Assembly (NCBI GenBank): GCA_001769655.1
Contig: MEPC01000016.1
Span: 1 to 64,000, forward strand
Length of the DNA stretch: 64,000 bases
Reading direction: 5' to 3'
From: Bacteroidetes bacterium RIFCSPLOWO2_12_FULL_37_12
GTDB lineage: Bacteria; Bacteroidota; Bacteroidia; 2-12-FULL-37-12
Shown here: positions 33,079-53,138 of the stretch, in pieces
Numbering within the stretch: the first letter of the stretch is position 1
How the letters are laid out: every line of letters starts with the position of its first letter
Made by a program: the position numbers and the translations under genes
Notes under the pieces: model-generated
The model's input: the letters and a program-made list of their open reading frames with translations, nothing else
Database searches by the model: none
What the model was told of the DNA's origin: nothing

Positions 33079-34455
33079 ATGCAAAATCCCTATTTTTATG
33101 AATTTTGGTATGAGACAGTATATTATTTAAAATGGTATGACTTGTTTTTAGTTCCCGTCTATATTCTTGTAATTAATAATATAATTAAAAAGTATGAAAA
33201 AAATAAGATAAGTTCTTACCCTTATTATAAATATTTTACGAAAGGGTTAATGTTTAAAATTACAGGCTGTCTGTTATTATTTATTGTTTTTAATTTTTAT
33301 TATGGGTATGGCGATACATTCGGATACTACAGAACAAATGAGTGTTTGACAAAATTATTTTTAAAAAATCCTATTAATTTTTTCAAGGTTTGGCTAGGAC
33401 CAAATTCAGTTGAAAATTATGCCCTTTTTGATACTGATACTCTTTTTCCACCTTATTGGGGTGACCCTCAGGTATTTATGATTGTGAGAATTACTGCACC
33501 GCTTACTATATTAGGTTTTAACAGTTATCTGCTTACTAGTTTACTATTAGTTTGTTTTTCTTTTTCAGGAATCTGGAAACTATATCTATTATTTATTAGT
33601 TATTTTCCCGGAGCTTATGAAAAGGTTAGTTTTGCTTGTTTTTTTATTCCATCAGTTGTATTCTGGGGTTCCGGTTTGTTAAAAGACAGCATAACACTTT
33701 CATTAATTGGTTGGTACTGTTTTAGTTTCAATCAATGTATTATTAGGAGGAATTCTATAGTAAATTATAGTATAATTTTTCTAATTTCTTCCTATTTTAT
33801 CCTTTCTATAAAACCTTACATTTTTGCATGTTTAATTCCTACAACTGCTATTTGGGTTGCGTTTGCTTATTATACAAAAATTTCAAATAAATTTTATCGT
33901 TTTCTTCTAATACCTATTATTTCCATATTTTGTGTGATGGGGGTTTTTTGGTTATTTGACGCTCTTAGCAAAGAACTTCAACAATTTGCCCTTGATAAAG
34001 TTTTGACTCATGCATTGACAGTACAAAACGATCTTAAACAGGATTATTATGAGGGGACGGCATTTGATATTGGTGATTTTGAGCCAACCATATCTGGAGC
34101 GCTTTCCAAGTTTCCAAAGGCAATTACTGCTACATTTTTCAGACCTTTTTTGTGGGAAATTAAAAGTCCTGTTGTTTTTTTCTCAGCAGTTGAAAGTTTT
34201 TTTATTTTAATCTTTTCTTTGAAAGTCTTTTATGAGATTGGTTTTTTTAGTTTTTTTAAATACATATTAAAATCGCCCATAACGGCATTTACTTTTTCTT
34301 TTTCCATTATCTTTGGTTTTTCTGTGGGTCTAACAAGTGCCAATTTTGGTTCATTGGTCAGATATAAAATCCCTTGCTTAGTTTTTTACCTTGTAACTTT
34401 AATATTGGTTAAATTTATGCATTCGCAAAAGGATAATAGAACAGAAGTATTATAA
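33079..34455 (+). CDS. Polytopic membrane protein, candidate polysaccharide polymerase (copy 1)
   Basis: Protein of 458 residues with about ten membrane helices. It is a distant paralogue of the gene at 38842-40182: shared blocks are GYGDTFGYYRTNE (a Gx-D-x-x-GYxRxNE pattern), WGSGLLKDSI (LLKD), SIKPYIF (R/KP), RPF, and ANFGSLVRYKIP (NFGS-x-x-R). The conserved acidic and basic residues in predicted loops and the location in a polysaccharide locus suggest a Wzy-like or glycosyl-transfer role. No named family recognised; this is inference. Its 3' end converges with a glycosyltransferase gene after 16 bases. Confidence 0.65.
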   Translation: MQNPYFYEFWYETVYYLKWYDLFLVPVYILVINNIIKKYEKNKISSYPYYKYFTKGLMFKITGCLLLFIVFNFYYGYGDTFGYYRTNECLTKLFLKNPINFFKVWLGPNSVENYALFDTDTLFPPYWGDPQVFMIVRITAPLTILGFNSYLLTSLLLVCFSFSGIWKLYLLFISYFPGAYEKVSFACFFIPSVVFWGSGLLKDSITLSLIGWYCFSFNQCIIRRNSIVNYSIIFLISSYFILSIKPYIFACLIPTTAIWVAFAYYTKISNKFYRFLLIPIISIFCVMGVFWLFDALSKELQQFALDKVLTHALTVQNDLKQDYYEGTAFDIGDFEPTISGALSKFPKAITATFFRPFLWEIKSPVVFFSAVESFFILIFSLKVFYEIGFFSFFKYILKSPITAFTFSFSIIFGFSVGLTSANFGSLVRYKIPCLVFYLVTLILVKFMHSQKDNRTEVL

Positions 34456-34471
34456 TTTATTAATTATTTCT

Positions 34472-35164
34472 CTATCTTTTCCGCAGCATGAATGTCAAAA
34501 AATCCAAGCCCGTTCTACTTAACGCCTTAAACGACCCGGCTGTTGATACTCCCCCGCTTCTTTTAATCATTTCTACTGGAAATTCATAAAAAGTAAAATT
34601 CATTCTCTTTGCTTTTATCAGTATTTCCGCCAGCATAAAAATTCCTCCATATTCAATATTTATCCCATTTACAAATATTTTACGATTATATAAATGTATC
34701 CAGTTAAAATCCTTCAACGAAAGTCCAAAAAATAATCCGATCACTTTGTTATACAACCATGAATTAAATTTCATTCTGAGAGTATATCCCAATCTCACCT
34801 TACGATAACTAACCAGAATGTCCGCTTTCCCAAGATTATTATGAAATGCGCCAAATACTTCGGGAGTCAAAGGACTATCCACCGGCACAAAAATAATATA
34901 AGTGTTAGTTGAATTTTTTATCCCTACATGAATGGCACTTCCTATACCGCCGTTTAGTTTATTTAGAATTTTTACACCTTGAATGGTAGAAAATAAATTA
35001 ATTTCTTTTTCAGAACCATCCGTACTTCCGTCATTTACGATAATCAGCTCATAATCAATTTCAAATGACTTTAATGTAGAAAGTGATGTATTAATGGAAT
35101 CGGTTATTCTTCCAAGTTCATTATAAACAGGTACGATTACTGTGAAATCAGGTTTATTTTCCAT
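34472..35164 (-). CDS. Family 2 glycosyltransferase (dolichol-phosphate-mannose-synthase-like)
   Basis: Protein of 230 residues with a GT-A fold. Start FTVIVPVYNELGRI, then ELIIVNDGSTDGS (nucleotide-binding), NGGIGSAIHVGI, and VPVDSPLTPE at the place where the DxD motif (DADLQ) normally lies, so the metal-binding motif is reduced to a single aspartate. The rest resembles undecaprenyl-phosphate sugar transferases without membrane helices. It is transcribed downstream of the Gfo/Idh gene, 29 bases apart. Confidence 0.82.
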   Translation of the reverse strand: MENKPDFTVIVPVYNELGRITDSINTSLSTLKSFEIDYELIIVNDGSTDGSEKEINLFSTIQGVKILNKLNGGIGSAIHVGIKNSTNTYIIFVPVDSPLTPEVFGAFHNNLGKADILVSYRKVRLGYTLRMKFNSWLYNKVIGLFFGLSLKDFNWIHLYNRKIFVNGINIEYGGIFMLAEILIKAKRMNFTFYEFPVEMIKRSGGVSTAGSFKALSRTGLDFLTFMLRKR

Positions 35165-35193: not shown

Positions 35194-36201
35194 TCAAAGT
35201 TGAACCTTTATGTTTCCATTGTCCAAACTTTTTTGAGCCGCCTCTAATATTTTAACTACTTCAAGTCCGTTTAACCCATCCGTTAATGTTTTTTTATTGT
35301 TTAAAATACAATCCAAAAAGTGTTCAACTTCCTGCTTCAATGGTTCATTTGGTTTTATAAAAGGTATGGAAATGCCCCCATCTCTTAGTGACAGTTGAAA
35401 CTCACCAAACTCTCCGGTTCTTGGCTGATAGTCCACTCCTTTATCATAAATTCTTACTTTTTCATTGAGAGAAACATCATCAAATACAACCATTTGTTTG
35501 TCTCCTACTATGGTCATGGTTCTTATTTTACAGGGGTCTAACCATGAAACATGCATTTTAACAATTAAATTTTCATTATATTGAAGAATGAGAAAAACAA
35601 CATCATCTATCCCTTTTTGCAGATAATTTTCCCCAAAAGCTATAACCGAGACCGGTTTTGAATTGACAAGCGAAAGAATAATGGAAATATCATGGGAAGC
35701 AAGATCCCATAAAACATTTACATCACTTCTCACAGGTCCCAAACCTGTTCGTGTAAAATGAACGTATAATACATTCCCAAACGCGGTATTTTTAATCCAA
35801 TCATAAATGAATTGAATTGATGTATTATACAGGAAGGTATGCCCAACCATTAAAACGAGGTTGTTCTTTTTTGCTATTTCAATTAATTCTTTTGCCTCTT
35901 CTGATGTATATGTAAAAGGTTTTTCACACAATACATGTTTGTGGTGAAGTAGTAACTCTTTTACAATTTTATAATGTGTTTTAACAGGAGTAGATACCAC
36001 TACTGCGGTAATGGAATCATCATTTAAAATTTCTTTATAGTCATTAAAATAATTCAGTCCTGTGAATTTACCAGATAATCGGTTTAATTTTGTTTCATCG
36101 CAGTCGCAAATAGCTTTCAGCGGAACAAACTTTTGCTGGCTTAACACCCGAATAAAGTTTGGTCCCCAATAACCACAACCGATAACAGCAGAGTATTTCA
36201 T
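35194..36201 (-). CDS. Gfo/Idh/MocA-family sugar oxidoreductase
   Basis: NAD(P)-dependent oxidoreductase of 335 residues. Rossmann motif GCGYWGPNFIRVL (7-19), then VVVSTPVKTHY, the conserved CEKPF (EKP) catalytic-lysine motif, GHTFLYN, and DLASHDISIILSL with the substrate-binding histidine. Related enzymes (WlbA/WbpB) oxidise C3 of UDP-sugar acids before amination. The ATG at 36201 begins the Rossmann strand; the open frame runs 8 codons further but a -7 box lies in between. A divergent gene unit with an amidotransferase starts 52 bases away. Confidence 0.88.
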   Translation of the reverse strand: MKYSAVIGCGYWGPNFIRVLSQQKFVPLKAICDCDETKLNRLSGKFTGLNYFNDYKEILNDDSITAVVVSTPVKTHYKIVKELLLHHKHVLCEKPFTYTSEEAKELIEIAKKNNLVLMVGHTFLYNTSIQFIYDWIKNTAFGNVLYVHFTRTGLGPVRSDVNVLWDLASHDISIILSLVNSKPVSVIAFGENYLQKGIDDVVFLILQYNENLIVKMHVSWLDPCKIRTMTIVGDKQMVVFDDVSLNEKVRIYDKGVDYQPRTGEFGEFQLSLRDGGISIPFIKPNEPLKQEVEHFLDCILNNKKTLTDGLNGLEVVKILEAAQKSLDNGNIKVQL

Positions 36202-36213
36202 GGTTTTTAGGGG

Positions 36214-36221
36214 CAAACATA
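36214..36221 (-). promoter_or_regulatory. -7 box for the Gfo/Idh gene
   Basis: TATGTTTG on the minus strand, an exact TAnnTTTG match, 12 bases before the ATG. It faces away from the box at 36242-36249. Confidence 0.5.
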
Positions 36222-36241
36222 ACATATTTTTTTATTTTTTG

Positions 36242-36252: not shown

Positions 36253-36642
36253 ATGCAAAATTTTCTTCATGGCTGGGGACTTGTAATTCTAAGTGGGATA
36301 CTTGACTCATCCGCTATTATCCTTATAAAAAAATCCCTTAATCGCTTTGGCAAAATACCTCTTGAAAGTGTAGGTCTAACTTTTGATTATTTGATTGACT
36401 TTCTGAAATCCCCAATTTCATTAGCCGGTATTCTCTTTTATTTGTGTTCACCGTTTATATGGTTTCTTGCTTTGTCGCGTCTGGAAGTTTCAAAAGCATA
36501 TCCTGTTCTCGTTTCCATACATTTAGTGTTATCATTTCTACTTGCTGTCATGTTTCTGGATGAAAAATTAACGTTGATTAAAATGATTGCGTTATTTATG
36601 ATTTTAACAGGAGCTATTTTATTGATTAATAAACAAGCATGA
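36253..36642 (+). CDS. SMR/EmrE-like small membrane transporter (possible lipid-sugar flippase)
   Basis: Protein of 129 residues with four membrane helices and a conserved PVLVSIHLVLSFLLAVMFLDEKLTLIKMIA segment of the SMR/DMT superfamily (in pieces: YPVLVS, FLDEKLT, GAILL). In polysaccharide loci such proteins are often ArnE/ArnF-like flippases of undecaprenyl-phosphate sugars. Its stop overlaps the start of the next gene (ATGA, 36639-36642), tying it to the nitrilase and amidotransferase. ATG at 36253 is preferred over an in-frame TTG two codons earlier that lies in the -7 box. Confidence 0.8.
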   Translation: MQNFLHGWGLVILSGILDSSAIILIKKSLNRFGKIPLESVGLTFDYLIDFLKSPISLAGILFYLCSPFIWFLALSRLEVSKAYPVLVSIHLVLSFLLAVMFLDEKLTLIKMIALFMILTGAILLINKQA

Positions 36643-37496
36643 ATGATTCTGAAAAATTAAAAATTGGTATGGGTCAGCTCCTTGTGGAAGGAGGGGAACC
36701 GGAAAGAAACCTTAACAGAGCTGAAGAATTAATCATTGAAGCATCGCGCTCAGGGTGTAATATTATTCTTTTGCCAGAATGTTCTGACTTAGCGTGGTCT
36801 CATCCGAGCGCAAAAACCAAAGCTGAAACAATTCCGGGCAAAAGAAGCGACTTTTTTTCTGCTATAGCTGTAAGAGAAAAAATATACATTGCAGTAGGTT
36901 TAACAGAAAAAGTGGAAAACAGCATTTACAATTCTGCTATTTTGGTTAATCCATCGGGAGATATTATTTTAAAATACCGTAAAATTAATATCCTAAAAGT
37001 GGTGCAGGATTTGTACGAAGTTGGTGGTACTCTTTCTGTGGTTAAAACCCCATTAGGTGTCATCGGTATGAATATTTGCTCCGACAATTACATTGATTCA
37101 TTAAACATCGGTCATGTACTTGGCAGAATGGGCGCACAAATAATTCTTTCTCCAAGCTCATGGACTGTTGATTATAATGTAACTAACGATTCAGACCCAT
37201 ATAGAGAAAAATGGTTGAAACCCTATTCAATTTTAGCAAAAATGTTTGACCTTGTTATGGTGAGTGCCACCAGCGTAGGTTATCTGGTGGGAGGTCCTTT
37301 TGAGGGGAAAAAATCAGTAGGATGCTCAATAGCAGTAGGAAAAAACGGTATTCTTGCCATGGGTAAATTTAATGAACTTGCGAGTGAGCTTATCATTGCT
37401 GAATTTATTGTACCTCAGCCATTCCGGAAAGGAACAGAACTAACTTCTTACCTGGCAGAATCCGGTTATAAAGAATCGTTTGGGAAATTTATATAA
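36639..37496 (+). CDS. Carbon-nitrogen hydrolase (nitrilase superfamily amidase)
   Basis: Protein of 285 residues. All three catalytic residues are present: E47 in LLPECSD, K115 in KYRKINI and C147 in NICSDN. The superfamily hydrolyses C-N bonds to release ammonia. It is coupled to the flippase upstream (ATGA overlap) and the amidotransferase starts 1 base after its stop. Nitrilase domains supply ammonia to amidotransferases in other systems (for example in NAD synthetase), so a role as ammonia donor for the WbpG-like enzyme is proposed. The substrate could also be a sugar amide. No signal peptide; cytoplasmic. Confidence 0.88.
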   Translation: MNDSEKLKIGMGQLLVEGGEPERNLNRAEELIIEASRSGCNIILLPECSDLAWSHPSAKTKAETIPGKRSDFFSAIAVREKIYIAVGLTEKVENSIYNSAILVNPSGDIILKYRKINILKVVQDLYEVGGTLSVVKTPLGVIGMNICSDNYIDSLNIGHVLGRMGAQIILSPSSWTVDYNVTNDSDPYREKWLKPYSILAKMFDLVMVSATSVGYLVGGPFEGKKSVGCSIAVGKNGILAMGKFNELASELIIAEFIVPQPFRKGTELTSYLAESGYKESFGKFI

Positions 37497-37497
37497 A

Positions 37498-38664
37498 ATG
37501 AAGTTAATGCCCCAAAAAAATTTCCGATGCAAAAAGTGTATAATGGATTCTTCCATAAAAGGAATTCTATTTGATTCGGAAGGGGTTTGTAATTTTTGTC
37601 ATCTGCATTTTCTACTGGCTCAACAATTTCCTATTGTAAAAGATCCGAATTATATTCCACATAAAATAATAGAAAAAATCAAACAGAGAGGCATTGGCAA
37701 AAAATACGATTGTATCACAGGAATCAGCGGAGGGTGTGACAGTACCTATACACTTTATCTTTTAAAAAAATGGAAATTAAGAGTTCTTGCCATTCATTTC
37801 AACGATGGCTGGGGTAATCCTGAAGCAGGTAAAAATATAACGAATGCAGTAAACGCGCTCGGAGTTGACTTCAACGTAATATCTTCTGACTGGCGTGAAT
37901 CAAAAGATATAAAAGTTGCCTGTTTAAAAGCTTCTGTACCGGAGTTAGACCTCGGAACCGACTTAGGAATAGCGGCGGCTTTATATGGAGCCGCTGTAAA
38001 ATATGACATTAAAACTATTGTTATAGGTAATTCCTTTCGTACAGAAGGAATAATGCCTTTGGAATGGAATTTTATGGATGGGACGTATCTTTCAGACATT
38101 CAAAAAAAATTTGGAAGCCGCCCATTAAGACTATGGAAAGCAGATGACCCGGGATTTAATCTTACATCAAAACATATAGTGTATTATATATTTTTAAAGG
38201 GCATAAAAACAATTCCAATACTTAGTTATGTACCTTATAATAAAAAGGAAGTTGCTGAAATGCTTTCAAAAGAGGTTAAATGGCAGGACCCGGGAGGAAG
38301 ATATTTTGACGATCTCTATCAGGGGTTTATGTCTATGGTACTTAGAACAAAATTTAACATTGATTTCAGAATTCCTTCTCTGGCGGCGCTTGTAAGAGAA
38401 AATCAAATTAGCTACGAGGAAGCGCTTTCTCAAATTTCATCCAAACCCTCTAATGAAACTGAGAGAATTATTGAACTTGCTATTCAGCGTCTCGGAGTTA
38501 CAAAAGAGGAAGTAATGCAGTGGTTAAAAGAAAAACCAAAATCATTCAGGGACTATAAAACCATTTATCCATTGTTTAAACTATTGCGTTTTCCGGTCTG
38601 GTTGTTTTCTGAACTTAGTTTTCTGCCAAAGACCGCATATTATAAGTATTATAAGTGCGGGTGA
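37498..38664 (+). CDS. N-acetyl sugar amidotransferase, WbpG/PseA type (copy 1)
   Basis: Protein of 388 residues. The N-terminal zinc-ribbon-like pairs CKKC and CNFC are followed by the PP-loop GISGGCDSTYTLYLL of N-type ATP pyrophosphatases, then a helical C-terminus. WbpG/PseA enzymes convert an N-acetyl group on a sugar to an acetamidino group using ATP and ammonia. Here it lies directly after a nitrilase-family gene, not after hisH/hisF. The start is ATG at 37498; a second ATG at 37507 is possible. It is a diverged paralogue of the gene at 47549-48712. The 3' end faces a probable pseudogene. Confidence 0.87.
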   Translation: MKLMPQKNFRCKKCIMDSSIKGILFDSEGVCNFCHLHFLLAQQFPIVKDPNYIPHKIIEKIKQRGIGKKYDCITGISGGCDSTYTLYLLKKWKLRVLAIHFNDGWGNPEAGKNITNAVNALGVDFNVISSDWRESKDIKVACLKASVPELDLGTDLGIAAALYGAAVKYDIKTIVIGNSFRTEGIMPLEWNFMDGTYLSDIQKKFGSRPLRLWKADDPGFNLTSKHIVYYIFLKGIKTIPILSYVPYNKKEVAEMLSKEVKWQDPGGRYFDDLYQGFMSMVLRTKFNIDFRIPSLAALVRENQISYEEALSQISSKPSNETERIIELAIQRLGVTKEEVMQWLKEKPKSFRDYKTIYPLFKLLRFPVWLFSELSFLPKTAYYKYYKCG

Positions 38665-38720: not shown

Positions 38721-38888
38721 ATGATGAAAGTAAAATTTGTAATGCTAAAATAAACACTCAATATTTTACTTTACCTGATACTATGTTTTATTAAATGTAG
38801 TAAGGAAATAAAAAAACAAAACGTATATTTTGTTGATAATATTAGTTTTGATTCTTATCCTTTTGAATACTCATGCCTAACATGTTGA
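38721..38888 (+). pseudogene. Remnant of a lipoprotein gene with an internal stop
   Basis: Reading from ATG 38721 gives MMKVKFVMLK, then TAA at 38751-38753, then in the same frame TLNILLYLILCFIKCSKEIK, which looks like a signal peptide ending in a lipobox cysteine, followed by about 30 more residues to TGA at 38886-38888. The 3' part runs into the end of the minus-strand membrane-protein gene, so the original gene has probably been cut by whatever placed that gene here. A -7 box precedes it. A 10-bp inverted repeat, AAAGTAAAAT (38727-38736) and ATTTTACTTT (38763-38772), spans the stop. Short length makes this tentative. Confidence 0.35.
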
Positions 38889-40182
38889 TGAAAGCAACTA
38901 AAGTGAAGAACAGAGAAAAAATTCTGAAACGATGCAGTGAACCAAAATTGGAAATTGTGTAGGCAGTAAAAAAAGAAAAAATAATCACGGAAGTTATACA
39001 CATCCAAAAAAAAGGCGATGTTATCAATTGTCTCAGAAGATGAACGGGTGGAATTTTTATCAATATTATCAAAATAATAATGAAGAATAAAATATTTTCA
39101 AACACAGCAGGTAATAAAGTATGATTAGATTGAGTTTCAAAAAAAGGTCTTAAAAAGAGGTTGAACGTAAAATAAGGTATCTGGACAATTAAAAGATGAG
39201 TTAAATTTCCAAAAGAAAAATTCATTGAAGAATAAGGGTTATCAGGAAATGCAGAAGTTCTGCGGATGGAAGCTGTTTCTAAAATATTATCTAAATTAAA
39301 TTCAGCCAGGAAAGGACTTAATTTCAGAACGATTATCAAAGAAAAAAATATGAATAAGCACATTAAAAACGGAGCTGTAGTGAATTTTAATATAGGATTT
39401 TTTATGCTAAACAACATTTTCAAAAAAAAGTAAACAAGTGATCCGGATATTAGTGGAATTATCATAAAAGGGCGAATATTAATAATGATTAAAAGGGATA
39501 CTAAACCAATCAGTGGGTATTTAAATAAAAAAGATTCCTTTTCTTTATCATGTAATTTCATTATAGAGTAGAAAAACAAACAACTGAATGAAAGGACGAT
39601 ACCATCTTTCAAAAGTAAAGAACTCCATGCCGCTATTGAAGGGAAACAAAACATGGCAAAGGCAAGGACTAATAAATATTTTTTATCAGGGAGATATAAA
39701 TATTTAAAAAATTTCCAAACCGGAATAAAGGTTAGAAAAGTGAAAAGTAAATTTACTCCTAAATAACTATTTAAACAAATTGCATTGAGAATAAAGGTAA
39801 ATTTATTTACCATAAGGGACCGAGAATCCTTTAAATAGTTAGGCCACTCATTCATGAAAAAAGTATTATTAAAGACAGTATTATCGTTAAGAAGAAAAAA
39901 CCTAAAAAAACTTTGAGGTGCTTTCTTTAGTAATAAAAGAATTATTTCATTACCTCTGAAATACCCAAGTCCATCTGCAGAGCCGAGATATACATTATAG
40001 ATAAAGTAGAATATAATGCATATAGTTAGCTTAATATATATTAAAGGCAAGAAATAAATATTTACAGGATGGTGGTTGGCAAAATATTTTAAGTATAGTT
40101 CTGAAACACCTATGATACCAAAAATAAGTATTGGTAAAATAAAAACATCATGAAATGTAAGAAAATAAAATATAGAATTCAT
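38842..40182 (-). CDS. Polytopic membrane protein, candidate polysaccharide polymerase (copy 2)
   Basis: Protein of 446 residues with about ten membrane helices, a distant paralogue of the gene at 33079-34455 on the opposite strand. Shared blocks: GSADGLGYFRGNE, WSSLLLKDGI, NIRPFMI, FLRPFFE, and SNFGSLHRFRIF. These keep a D-x-x-GYxRxNE motif, LLKD, an RPF and NFGS-x-x-R in the same order. Two diverged copies in one locus are consistent with two polysaccharides or two linkage specificities. It follows the Wzz-like gene by 41 bases on the same strand, which supports a polymerase role. Confidence 0.65.
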   Translation of the reverse strand: MNSIFYFLTFHDVFILPILIFGIIGVSELYLKYFANHHPVNIYFLPLIYIKLTICIIFYFIYNVYLGSADGLGYFRGNEIILLLLKKAPQSFFRFFLLNDNTVFNNTFFMNEWPNYLKDSRSLMVNKFTFILNAICLNSYLGVNLLFTFLTFIPVWKFFKYLYLPDKKYLLVLAFAMFCFPSIAAWSSLLLKDGIVLSFSCLFFYSIMKLHDKEKESFLFKYPLIGLVSLLIIINIRPFMIIPLISGSLVYFFLKMLFSIKNPILKFTTAPFLMCLFIFFSLIIVLKLSPFLAEFNLDNILETASIRRTSAFPDNPYSSMNFSFGNLTHLLIVQIPYFTFNLFLRPFFETQSNHTLLPAVFENILFFIIILIILIKIPPVHLLRQLITSPFFWMCITSVIIFSFFTAYTISNFGSLHRFRIFSLFFTLVAFINMLGMSIQKDKNQN

Positions 40183-46750: not shown

Positions 46751-47512
46751 TCAGTTTAAATATTGACTTAAAACTTCTTTTGAGGGATAATTTATCAGAA
46801 AACCAGTTTTCTGCTTATTATGAAAAAGAAATAAATTACTTGCAGCAACAGCGGATGCTCCAGATACAACAGCAAGTTTAAAATCGTTATAATTTCCTGC
46901 TCCTCCGTTTGCAATAACGGGGATACTTAAATGTCTGCTTATATCATAAATTAATTGCTGTTCATATCCTTTATATGTGCCCTCATGGGGAATGAATGTA
47001 ATTAACAGTTCACCTATACCGAGATTTTCAAGAATTTTGGCATATTCAAAAGGGTTTTTTCCTGTGTTTAATTTCCCATTTTTTACATATACTTTGTATC
47101 TTCCCCAAAAATCTTTTTTTACGTCAATGGATCCTACAATGGACTGAGACCCAAATTCATTGCTTAAATTTTTGATTAATTCGGGATTCATAAATGCGGC
47201 TGTATTAATTACTATTTTTTCTACCCCAAGCGATATAATTTGACGAACCTGTTCTATATTCTTAATTCCTCCACCATAGGTAAGAGGCATATTACATTCA
47301 ATAGCGATTAATTCAATTAAACCAAAATTAGGTTGTTTTAATTCCCAATTTTGGCTGATATCCAGAACAATAATTTCCGGTATTTCAAATTCATTAAATA
47401 TCCTAACTGCATTTATGGGATCACCTAAATAATATGCATTTTTAAATTGAGTTGTTTTAACTAAATAGTTTTGGTCTAATAATAATATCGGAATTACCCT
47501 TGTTTTTAGCAT
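46751..47512 (-). CDS. HisF-like partner of a sugar amidotransferase
   Basis: TIM-barrel protein of 253 residues of the HisF family. Histidine-type HisF needs two aspartates: D11 in CLDV and D130 in a DAK-like motif. Here position 11 is L (IPILLLD), D130 is kept in GSIDVK, and the region of D176 (normally TSMDRDGT) reads TFIPHEGT with the Asp lost. It is therefore unlikely to make imidazole glycerol phosphate and fits the HisF2 class that channels ammonia to WbpG. Other family motifs (LTYGGGIK, VINTAAF, ANGGAG) are intact. Between the amidotransferase gene (36 bases) and the CotH-like gene (18 bases) in one operon. Confidence 0.85.
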   Translation of the reverse strand: MLKTRVIPILLLDQNYLVKTTQFKNAYYLGDPINAVRIFNEFEIPEIIVLDISQNWELKQPNFGLIELIAIECNMPLTYGGGIKNIEQVRQIISLGVEKIVINTAAFMNPELIKNLSNEFGSQSIVGSIDVKKDFWGRYKVYVKNGKLNTGKNPFEYAKILENLGIGELLITFIPHEGTYKGYEQQLIYDISRHLSIPVIANGGAGNYNDFKLAVVSGASAVAASNLFLFHNKQKTGFLINYPSKEVLSQYLN

Positions 47513-47548: not shown

Positions 47549-48712
47549 TCAAATAGTAAACTTTCCCCTTAACAATTTTTTAGGAAATAAAGGAAATGTA
47601 TAGATTTTATGAACCAATTTTGAAATCAACTGTTTAATAAAGAAATTTGTATTAAAATTGTTATAAGATTTAATGGGAAGGTTTAGAATTTCGTCAAATT
47701 CCGTAGGTGAAATCTCAAGTTTACGGCAAATATACATTTTGTCCTCACGGATGGCATCTTCGGATCTGATTTCTTTATTAAGTAAATTAAGGGCTTCATC
47801 TCTGTTCATTAAGCCCAATCTGATTTTGGCTGAATAGTTGACCTTTCTACGATCCATTTTGAATTTTACAGGAGCAATATAACTCATGAAGAATCTCGAA
47901 TATATATTCTCATAATGATGTCCGCTATAATCTATCCATCCAAACTCTTTTGTCAGCAATATTTTTGCCTCTTCTTTGTTATAATGGATGTGATTCAATA
48001 ATTGAACATGCTTAATCCTTTTAATGAAAATATAATACAAGTACCTAATCGGTGTTAAATTTGGAAAAGATTTTAAAGGATTTTTGGAATAAAAATTGTA
48101 AACACTTTGTATATATTTTGAGTCAGCAAAAAGCCATTCTTTCGGTAGAATACCCTCTGTCCTGAAACTGTCACCTGATAAAATAAACCTGATATTACGC
48201 TCCGAAGCTACCCGATAAAGAAGGGCAAAATAACCCATATCTGTTGGCAGTTCAACTTCCGCTACAGAAGCTTTTAAAAATGCAAGTTGAAGATTTCTAA
48301 ACTCATTCCAATCAACAACATAAGTATAAAGATCTATGCTCAACTTTTCCAGAGTAACCTTCATGTTTTTCACAGCCACTGTTGAGTTCCATCCATTGTC
48401 AAAGTGAACTGCCAAAGGTTTAATTCCATGTTTGACTAATAAATATAATAAATACATAGAATCAGTTCCGCCACTTATTCCTAAAATACAATCATATTTT
48501 CTGCCCTTTCCTTTTCCTTTTATTTTTTGAATAATTTCTGAGAATTTGCTACCATCTTGAGTGGTTATGGGATGTTCTCTTTCCCATTGTTCAAATAATT
48601 TACAGAATTCACATACTCCTTTTTCATCTGTTTCCAATTCATTAGAAACATTATCCATTACACATTTTGAACAGATTTTATATTCGTTGGCTATATATGT
48701 TGGTTTTTGCAT
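47549..48712 (-). CDS. N-acetyl sugar amidotransferase, WbpG/PseA type (copy 2)
   Basis: Protein of 387 residues with N-terminal CSKC and CEFC pairs and the PP-loop GISGGTDSMYLLYLL. Like the copy at 37498 it should amidate an N-acetyl sugar, but here the next gene encodes the HisF-like protein, the partner known for WbpG in Pseudomonas O-antigen loci; a HisH-like glutaminase lies 4.4 kb away at 52466. The start at 48712 is the only ATG before the first zinc pair. The gene leads a three-gene operon (amidotransferase, HisF-like, CotH-like). A 116-bp repeat lies just upstream. Confidence 0.87.
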   Translation of the reverse strand: MQKPTYIANEYKICSKCVMDNVSNELETDEKGVCEFCKLFEQWEREHPITTQDGSKFSEIIQKIKGKGKGRKYDCILGISGGTDSMYLLYLLVKHGIKPLAVHFDNGWNSTVAVKNMKVTLEKLSIDLYTYVVDWNEFRNLQLAFLKASVAEVELPTDMGYFALLYRVASERNIRFILSGDSFRTEGILPKEWLFADSKYIQSVYNFYSKNPLKSFPNLTPIRYLYYIFIKRIKHVQLLNHIHYNKEEAKILLTKEFGWIDYSGHHYENIYSRFFMSYIAPVKFKMDRRKVNYSAKIRLGLMNRDEALNLLNKEIRSEDAIREDKMYICRKLEISPTEFDEILNLPIKSYNNFNTNFFIKQLISKLVHKIYTFPLFPKKLLRGKFTI

Positions 48713-52465: not shown

Positions 52466-53071
52466 CTATAAGTTGCAGAAATTATGCAATAACCGGATTC
52501 CCTGCTGATGACTTTTTTCGGTATGAAATTGAACCCCAAAGATATTTTCCCTATTGATAACAGAGACGAAATCATGGTCATAAAATGTAGTGGCCAAAAC
52601 ATCGTTTTTGTCATGGCAAGTAACAAAATAGGAATGAACAAAATAGAAATACGGAATATCATCAATTCCATTAAACCAGGATGATTTTTTTATAAATTCT
52701 AATTTATTCCAACCCATGTGTGGGACTTTTAAACGGTTTTTTGCAATAAATTTCTTTGTAATGCCATCAATCCATCCCAAGCCTTCACAATTCCCTTCCT
52801 CGCTGAATTTTGTAAATAACTGCATCCCAAGACACACACCCAAAATAGGAGTTTTTTGAATAACAACCTTATTGTTCAGGACATCAACAAGGGAAAGTTT
52901 TCTCATGTTTTCAATGGCTGTTCTGAAAGAACCCACCCCGGGAAGTATCAGTTTATCAGCAGTGATTATGTCATTAGGATCGTTAGAGATTTTTGCTTTT
53001 ATATTCCCTTTTTCAATTTTATGGAGGATACCTTTTAAATTACCTAAACCATGATTAATTATTACTATCAT
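52466..53071 (-). CDS. HisH-like glutamine amidotransferase
   Basis: Class I glutaminase of 201 residues. Catalytic triad C80 (GVCLGMQLF), H183 and E185 (FHTEKS), and the oxyanion-strand motif LPGVGSF. It releases ammonia from glutamine for a HisF-like partner. No other his genes are in the window and the HisF-like gene at 46751 lacks residues needed for histidine synthesis, so both are assigned to sugar amidation with the WbpG-like gene at 47549. ATG at 53071 is preferred over the in-frame start 8 codons before. The gene stands apart from its partners, on the same strand. Confidence 0.87.
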   Translation of the reverse strand: MIVIINHGLGNLKGILHKIEKGNIKAKISNDPNDIITADKLILPGVGSFRTAIENMRKLSLVDVLNNKVVIQKTPILGVCLGMQLFTKFSEEGNCEGLGWIDGITKKFIAKNRLKVPHMGWNKLEFIKKSSWFNGIDDIPYFYFVHSYFVTCHDKNDVLATTFYDHDFVSVINRENIFGVQFHTEKSHQQGIRLLHNFCNL

Positions 53072-53138
53072 TTTTTTATTAAAAATAATATTCAAAAATA
53101 ATCTATTTTATGGATATTTGGCGTGAAAACAGATATAA

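Follow-up and report, generated by a model that had tools for sequence, protein, structure and literature searches.

The N-acetyl-sugar amidotransferase family has been reported to be defined by a tetracysteine motif together with the motif SGGXDS (PMC10607449), and in its described acetamidino-sugar systems the synthetase is accompanied by HisH and HisF, as in WbpG/HisH2/HisF2 of Pseudomonas aeruginosa O5 and WbuX/WbuY/WbuZ of Escherichia coli O145. The glutaminase of NAD synthetase is of the nitrilase type (class IV) and may be a subunit of its own, with its gene in the same operon as that of the synthetase; this arrangement was verified in Thermus, where the complex uses glutamine and the synthetase alone uses ammonia (PMC3376133). 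The locus in this study links a nitrilase-superfamily gene (NIT) to an amidotransferase gene of the WbuX/WbpG type (WBX1). Its elements are already known (the family of the synthetase, the fold of the nitrilase, the analogy to NAD synthetase); for the pairing, a search of the literature on nitrilases with WbpG, acetamidino or PP-loop amidotransferases, from which subscription journals were mostly absent, found no description.

The window, the whole stretch of 64,000 nucleotides that was analysed, has an SMR-type gene followed by NIT and WBX1 at 36253-38664, all on the plus strand, and two genes for candidate enzymes of the same sugar pathway that run divergently from this trio:

34472-35164, minus strand: GT2 glycosyltransferase, candidate polyprenyl-phosphate sugar transferase (Glycos_transf_2, E=4e-15; weak match to the ArnC model)
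35194-36225, minus strand: Gfo/Idh oxidoreductase, candidate nucleotide-sugar 3-dehydrogenase (best model UDP-GlcNAc 3-dehydrogenase, 187 bits, below the cut-off of 450)
36253-36642, plus strand: small SMR/EamA-type membrane protein resembling the ArnF flippase subunit (start ATG; Pfam EamA, 29 bits, cut-off 28.2)
36639-37496, plus strand: NIT, member of the nitrilase superfamily, proposed to be the ammonia-supplying glutaminase subunit (Pfam CN_hydrolase, E=2.6e-30)
37498-38664, plus strand: WBX1, N-acetyl-sugar amidotransferase of the WbuX/WbpG type, proposed synthetase subunit (NCBIfam TIGR03573, E=6.8e-57; PP-loop SGGCDS; Cys4 motif)

The SMR-type and NIT genes overlap by 4 bases, and a single base separates NIT from WBX1; re-derived coordinates gave the same three genes, overlap and gap that an earlier note on this DNA had described. 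The SMR-type protein matches the NCBIfam ArnF model with 45.6 bits (E=8.7e-12), under the cut-off of 99, and its relatives adjoin NIT immediately upstream in other phyla. A DegT relative and an acetyltransferase relative are located on the same contig, about 37-42 kb from the trio. Two similar-looking multi-spanning membrane proteins, at 33079-34455 (plus strand) and 38842-40182 (minus strand), bracket the block from GT2 to WBX1 and, judging from their sequences, may be polymerases or transferases of a glycan cluster.

WBX1 scored 193.4 bits against TIGR03573, about ten bits short of the curated cut-off of 203.2, and several of its orthologues pass it (e.g., 233 and 230 bits). Both motifs of the family are present: the PP-loop reads SGGCDS at residues 77-82 (window 37726-37743), compared with SGGRDS in 77 of 79 relatives, and the tetracysteine motif CXXC..[GN]XCXXC is formed by C11, C14, G29-V30-C31 and C34 and kept across 46 aligned relatives. 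The profile search matched 8WEX (E=9.7e-21), which is also the top Foldseek match of the AF2 model of WBX1 (pLDDT 92; E=3.5e-14, TM 0.63-0.66), the next nearest being sulfur transferases, NH3-dependent NAD synthetase and asparagine synthetase.

NIT passed none of the curated NCBIfam models, the best score being 73 bits against a cut-off of 500. Its AF2 model (pLDDT 91) has a predicted nitrilase fold, with NIT2, N-carbamoylputrescine amidohydrolase and a Pyrococcus amidase whose structure contains glutaramide (6YPA) as the nearest folds. In the profile search the NAD synthetase 5KHA (E=2.2e-7) ranked far below the amidases (archaeal nitrilase/amidase, 5e-26), and as far as sequence indicates NIT is no closer to the glutaminase of NAD synthetase than to other nitrilases. 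The residues E47, K115 and C147, which had been read as intact in the earlier note, are all present and are invariant in 81/81 aligned sequences, forming the E-K-C triad. A second glutamate near the triad is present in many, not all, characterised members of the superfamily. This glutamate, which the earlier note did not consider, is absent from the window copy, in which residue 122 is valine, and present in 69/81 sequences; the other 11 of the 12 sequences without it come from several phyla, and most of these have an acidic residue at the second position after it. The window NIT otherwise retains the near-invariant positions, 80-odd in number and triad included. The second glutamate supports the triad in many nitrilases, is essential in some, and is regulatory in NAD synthetase (PMC6946656).

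An alignment-based scan of genome contigs returned 133 NIT relatives, whereas a single-protein scan gave none; the best 80 of the 133 are the ones described here. Close relatives (50-63% identical) are present in at least 80 genomes from about ten phyla, mostly MAGs. These best 80 loci include 35 from Hymenobacter, 19 from other Bacteroidota and 15 from Omnitrophota, with one or two each from Pseudomonadota, Nitrospinota, Acidobacteriota, Lindowbacteria, Myxococcota, Thermodesulfobacteriota, Verrucomicrobiota and Bdellovibrionota. A WBX1-type amidotransferase shares the locus with NIT in 78 of these best 80, and is on the same strand downstream of NIT in 74, within about 200 bases in all but two (starts estimated); the proteins are about 45-54% identical to WBX1, apart from one contig-end fragment at 63%. 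In the two unlinked loci (L114 and L160) the WBX1-type gene is located elsewhere in the genome. Retention of the pair in 80 loci rules out chance, and no NIT-WBX1 fusion was seen.

Within the same class, NIT relatives of 50-61% identity were found in 12 of 395 genomes, the window's own included, and a thirteenth match (G320) is an outlier of 33% identity without WbuX. Relatives of NIT and of WBX1 are both matched in full in 11 genomes of this survey; in G123, which has NIT, the WBX1 match is a cut-off fragment on another contig. In G066 (83% complete; locus L212) a WBX1-type gene of 53% identity is followed by a carbamoyltransferase gene, and no NIT was found. The survey and the contig scan together rule out that the pair is unique to this genome, and the search proposed in the earlier note, for adjacent WbpG-family and nitrilase genes without hisH/hisF nearby, yields many loci. 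Viral contigs, phages and plasmids were also searched for NIT relatives and none were found, which gives no indication that the trait is carried by phages or plasmids. Pairwise distances of NIT and WBX1 correlate (r=0.69), as would be expected of any co-inherited pair, and this correlation is given no weight as a sign of interaction.

A conventional amidotransferase system, overlooked in the earlier note, is encoded in the same window, 8-14 kb from the NIT-WBX1 operon, so that two systems lie side by side:

46751-47512, minus strand: AglZ/HisF2-family partner of WBX2 (NF038364, 312.8 bits, cut-off 310), 36 bases downstream of WBX2
47549-48712, minus strand: WBX2, second WbuX amidotransferase and conventional paralogue (TIGR03573, 253 bits, above cut-off), grouping with HisF-linked WbuX
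52466-53095, minus strand: class I glutaminase of the HisH type that probably partners HisF2 and WBX2 (TIGR01855, 225 bits, cut-off 105)

The earlier description of an amidotransferase coupled to a nitrilase rather than to HisH/HisF therefore holds for the NIT-WBX1 operon, but not for the locus as a whole. HisF and HisH were searched for with profile HMMs, each built from 31 sequences, and neither turned up in any of the best 80 NIT loci (0/80; 1.17 Mb), while the window, used as positive control, gave both. The contrast set of 29 WbuX loci from the class-wide survey is without NIT throughout, and in 27 of them both HisF and HisH lie no more than 1.5 kb away. Three genomes with the NIT-WBX1 pair, G196, G199 and G356 (97, 99 and 97% complete), have no HisF above 30 bits, and in the complete genome G187 the sole HisF adjoins a HisA-like gene 0.3 Mb from the pair. 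In the trees, NIT-linked amidotransferases are separate from the HisF-linked branch that contains WBX2; they form one side of a low-support branch in a quick tree but not in a second, careful tree, and may thus be either a clade or a grade. WbuX genes without HisF/HisH within 1.5 kb were also observed, in G356 (L042, L054) and G150 (L043, L055), and these may draw ammonia from the free pool, from NIT or from another source, as suggested for G356 by the lack of a recognisable HisF genome-wide.

The genes around the pair vary among the sugar clusters while the pair itself is constant. Omnitrophota and several Bacteroidota have the gene order Gfo/Idh, acetyltransferase, DegT aminotransferase, NeuD-type acyltransferase, GT2, SMR, NIT and WBX1; in one such locus (L019) the GT2 protein is similar to PgfS/ArnC and the SMR protein to ArnF, both below cut-off. 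Among the best 80 NIT loci, 15 combine DegT with Gfo/Idh or acetyltransferase, and relatives of Gfo/Idh and GT2 occur in 17 and 23, respectively, of the 45 loci outside Hymenobacter. We take the set of Gfo/Idh, acetyltransferase, DegT, GT2 and SMR, from knowledge of these families, to be that expected for a 3-acetamido sugar which is lipid-linked and then flipped. In all 35 Hymenobacter loci valS adjoins the pair, which forms a two-gene unit, with no surrounding sugar genes in the two loci examined closely; standing alone beside valS, the two genes seem to suffice as a unit. The proposed link to a flippase applies to a subset (17 of the 45 loci outside Hymenobacter) and fails for the two-gene Hymenobacter units, which are without one. 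A constant association of pair and flippase is rejected by this gene content. A NodU-type carbamoyltransferase gene follows the pair in 13 of the best 80 loci and in several genomes of the class, many of them Bacteroidota (e.g., L024:6808-8421 and L026:6649-8259; also L130, L133, L136 and L142), and its position suggests that the sugar may be O-carbamoylated as well in these loci.

Taken together, NIT and WBX1 probably make up one glutamine-dependent N-acetyl-sugar amidotransferase of two subunits, with the nitrilase as glutaminase, a reading in which we have reasonably good confidence. NIT would hydrolyse glutamine at its Cys-Glu-Lys site and release ammonia, which might be channelled within a NIT-WBX1 complex; WBX1, an ATP-pyrophosphatase, would activate the acetamido oxygen of the sugar with ATP, and ammonia would then displace AMP, forming an acetamidino (N-C(=NH)-CH3) sugar. 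NIT would thereby fill the role of HisH plus HisF, in the manner of the nitrilase domain or subunit of glutamine-dependent NAD synthetase. Where Gfo/Idh, aminotransferase, acetyltransferase, GT2 and SMR are present, the substrate would probably be a 2,3-diacetamido sugar, placed on polyprenyl phosphate and flipped. The suggestion in the earlier note that a nitrilase may replace HisH/HisF as the ammonia source is strongly supported by comparative genomics (78/80 linked, 0/80 with HisF/HisH, and genomes without HisF). That this is an undescribed two-component amidotransferase spread over about ten phyla, in which a nitrilase fold was recruited in place of HisH/HisF as a free-standing two-gene unit, also appears likely, if with slightly less confidence. 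Weighing against the two subunits are the lack of special closeness to NAD synthetase, V122, the lack of a fusion, the presence of HisF/HisH elsewhere in the window, and the WBX1-type gene of G066 without NIT.

It could be argued that the substrate of NIT is some other amide or nitrile of the sugar pathway, for example in acyl removal or exchange before or after WBX1, and that WBX1 uses free ammonia. The substrates of the nitrilase superfamily are many and the solved structures nearest to NIT are general small-amide hydrolases, and single-domain NAD synthetase offers the precedent of an ATP-pyrophosphatase that uses free ammonia in vivo (PMC3376133). Such a role seems rather unlikely, however, as it leaves unexplained the absence of HisF/HisH from every NIT locus and the lone pair beside valS in 35 Hymenobacter loci, as well as a pair that stays constant while the accompanying genes differ between sugar clusters.

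The full WbuX-HisF2-HisH set in the same window could also mean that WBX1, though co-operonic with NIT, is fed by the HisH/HisF pair 8-14 kb away. Both of these genes exist here, but together with their own WbuX paralogue, WBX2, which lies 36 bases from HisF2, and with G196, G199 and G356 having the NIT-WBX1 pair and no recognisable HisF, and 0/80 NIT loci having HisF/HisH, such a supply is very improbable. It is less far-fetched, yet still improbable, that the family generally works as proposed and the window NIT has lost or altered its activity; V122 against glutamate in 69/81 sequences, and SGGCDS in WBX1 against SGGRDS in 77/79, would be in keeping with this, but the triad and the other 80-odd near-invariant positions are kept, the reading frame is unbroken and tightly packed, and the 11 relatives in several phyla lack E122 too, most of them having an acidic residue two positions on.

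If NIT and WBX1 do act as two subunits, acetamidino-sugar enzymes would be able to swap their ammonia source between HisH/HisF, a fused class II domain and a nitrilase, and nitrilase-type glutaminase chemistry would have a second user. An uncharacterised and widely conserved gene pair would gain a function, annotation that looks for HisH/HisF would overlook producers of acetamidino sugars, Hymenobacter among them, and a simple two-protein system would become available for the study of ammonia transfer in the amidotransferase family.

Compared with known systems, WBX1 shares with WbpG/HisH2/HisF2 and WbuX/WbuY/WbuZ the synthetase family (TIGR03573, 8WEX), the Cys4 motif and SGGxDS, and many NIT loci share with them a 3-acetamido sugar context, but NIT loci have a linked nitrilase and no HisH/HisF, and the NIT-linked amidotransferases group apart. 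A polysaccharide cluster of Sphingomonas has the same upstream enzymes as the NIT sugar clusters, but has WbuX with HisF2 and HisH (PMC11340318). A protein of 670-690 aa (L060:1459-3492, L061:1396-3435, L065:1125-3185 and L067:553-2574) joins a class II glutaminase (GlmS/PurF-type, MCGIFG) to a WbuX domain at its C-terminal side; here, too, a member of the WbuX family has a glutaminase that is neither HisH nor HisF, an apparent third way to feed such an enzyme, but it is a single protein on a distant branch of the family. The two-subunit NAD synthetase of Thermus thermophilus (TTC1538/TTC1539) resembles the pair in having a class IV glutaminase gene next to that of an ATP-pyrophosphatase synthetase, whereas its substrate is deamido-NAD, that of WBX1 is by family assignment an N-acetyl sugar, and NIT is not specifically close to its glutaminase.
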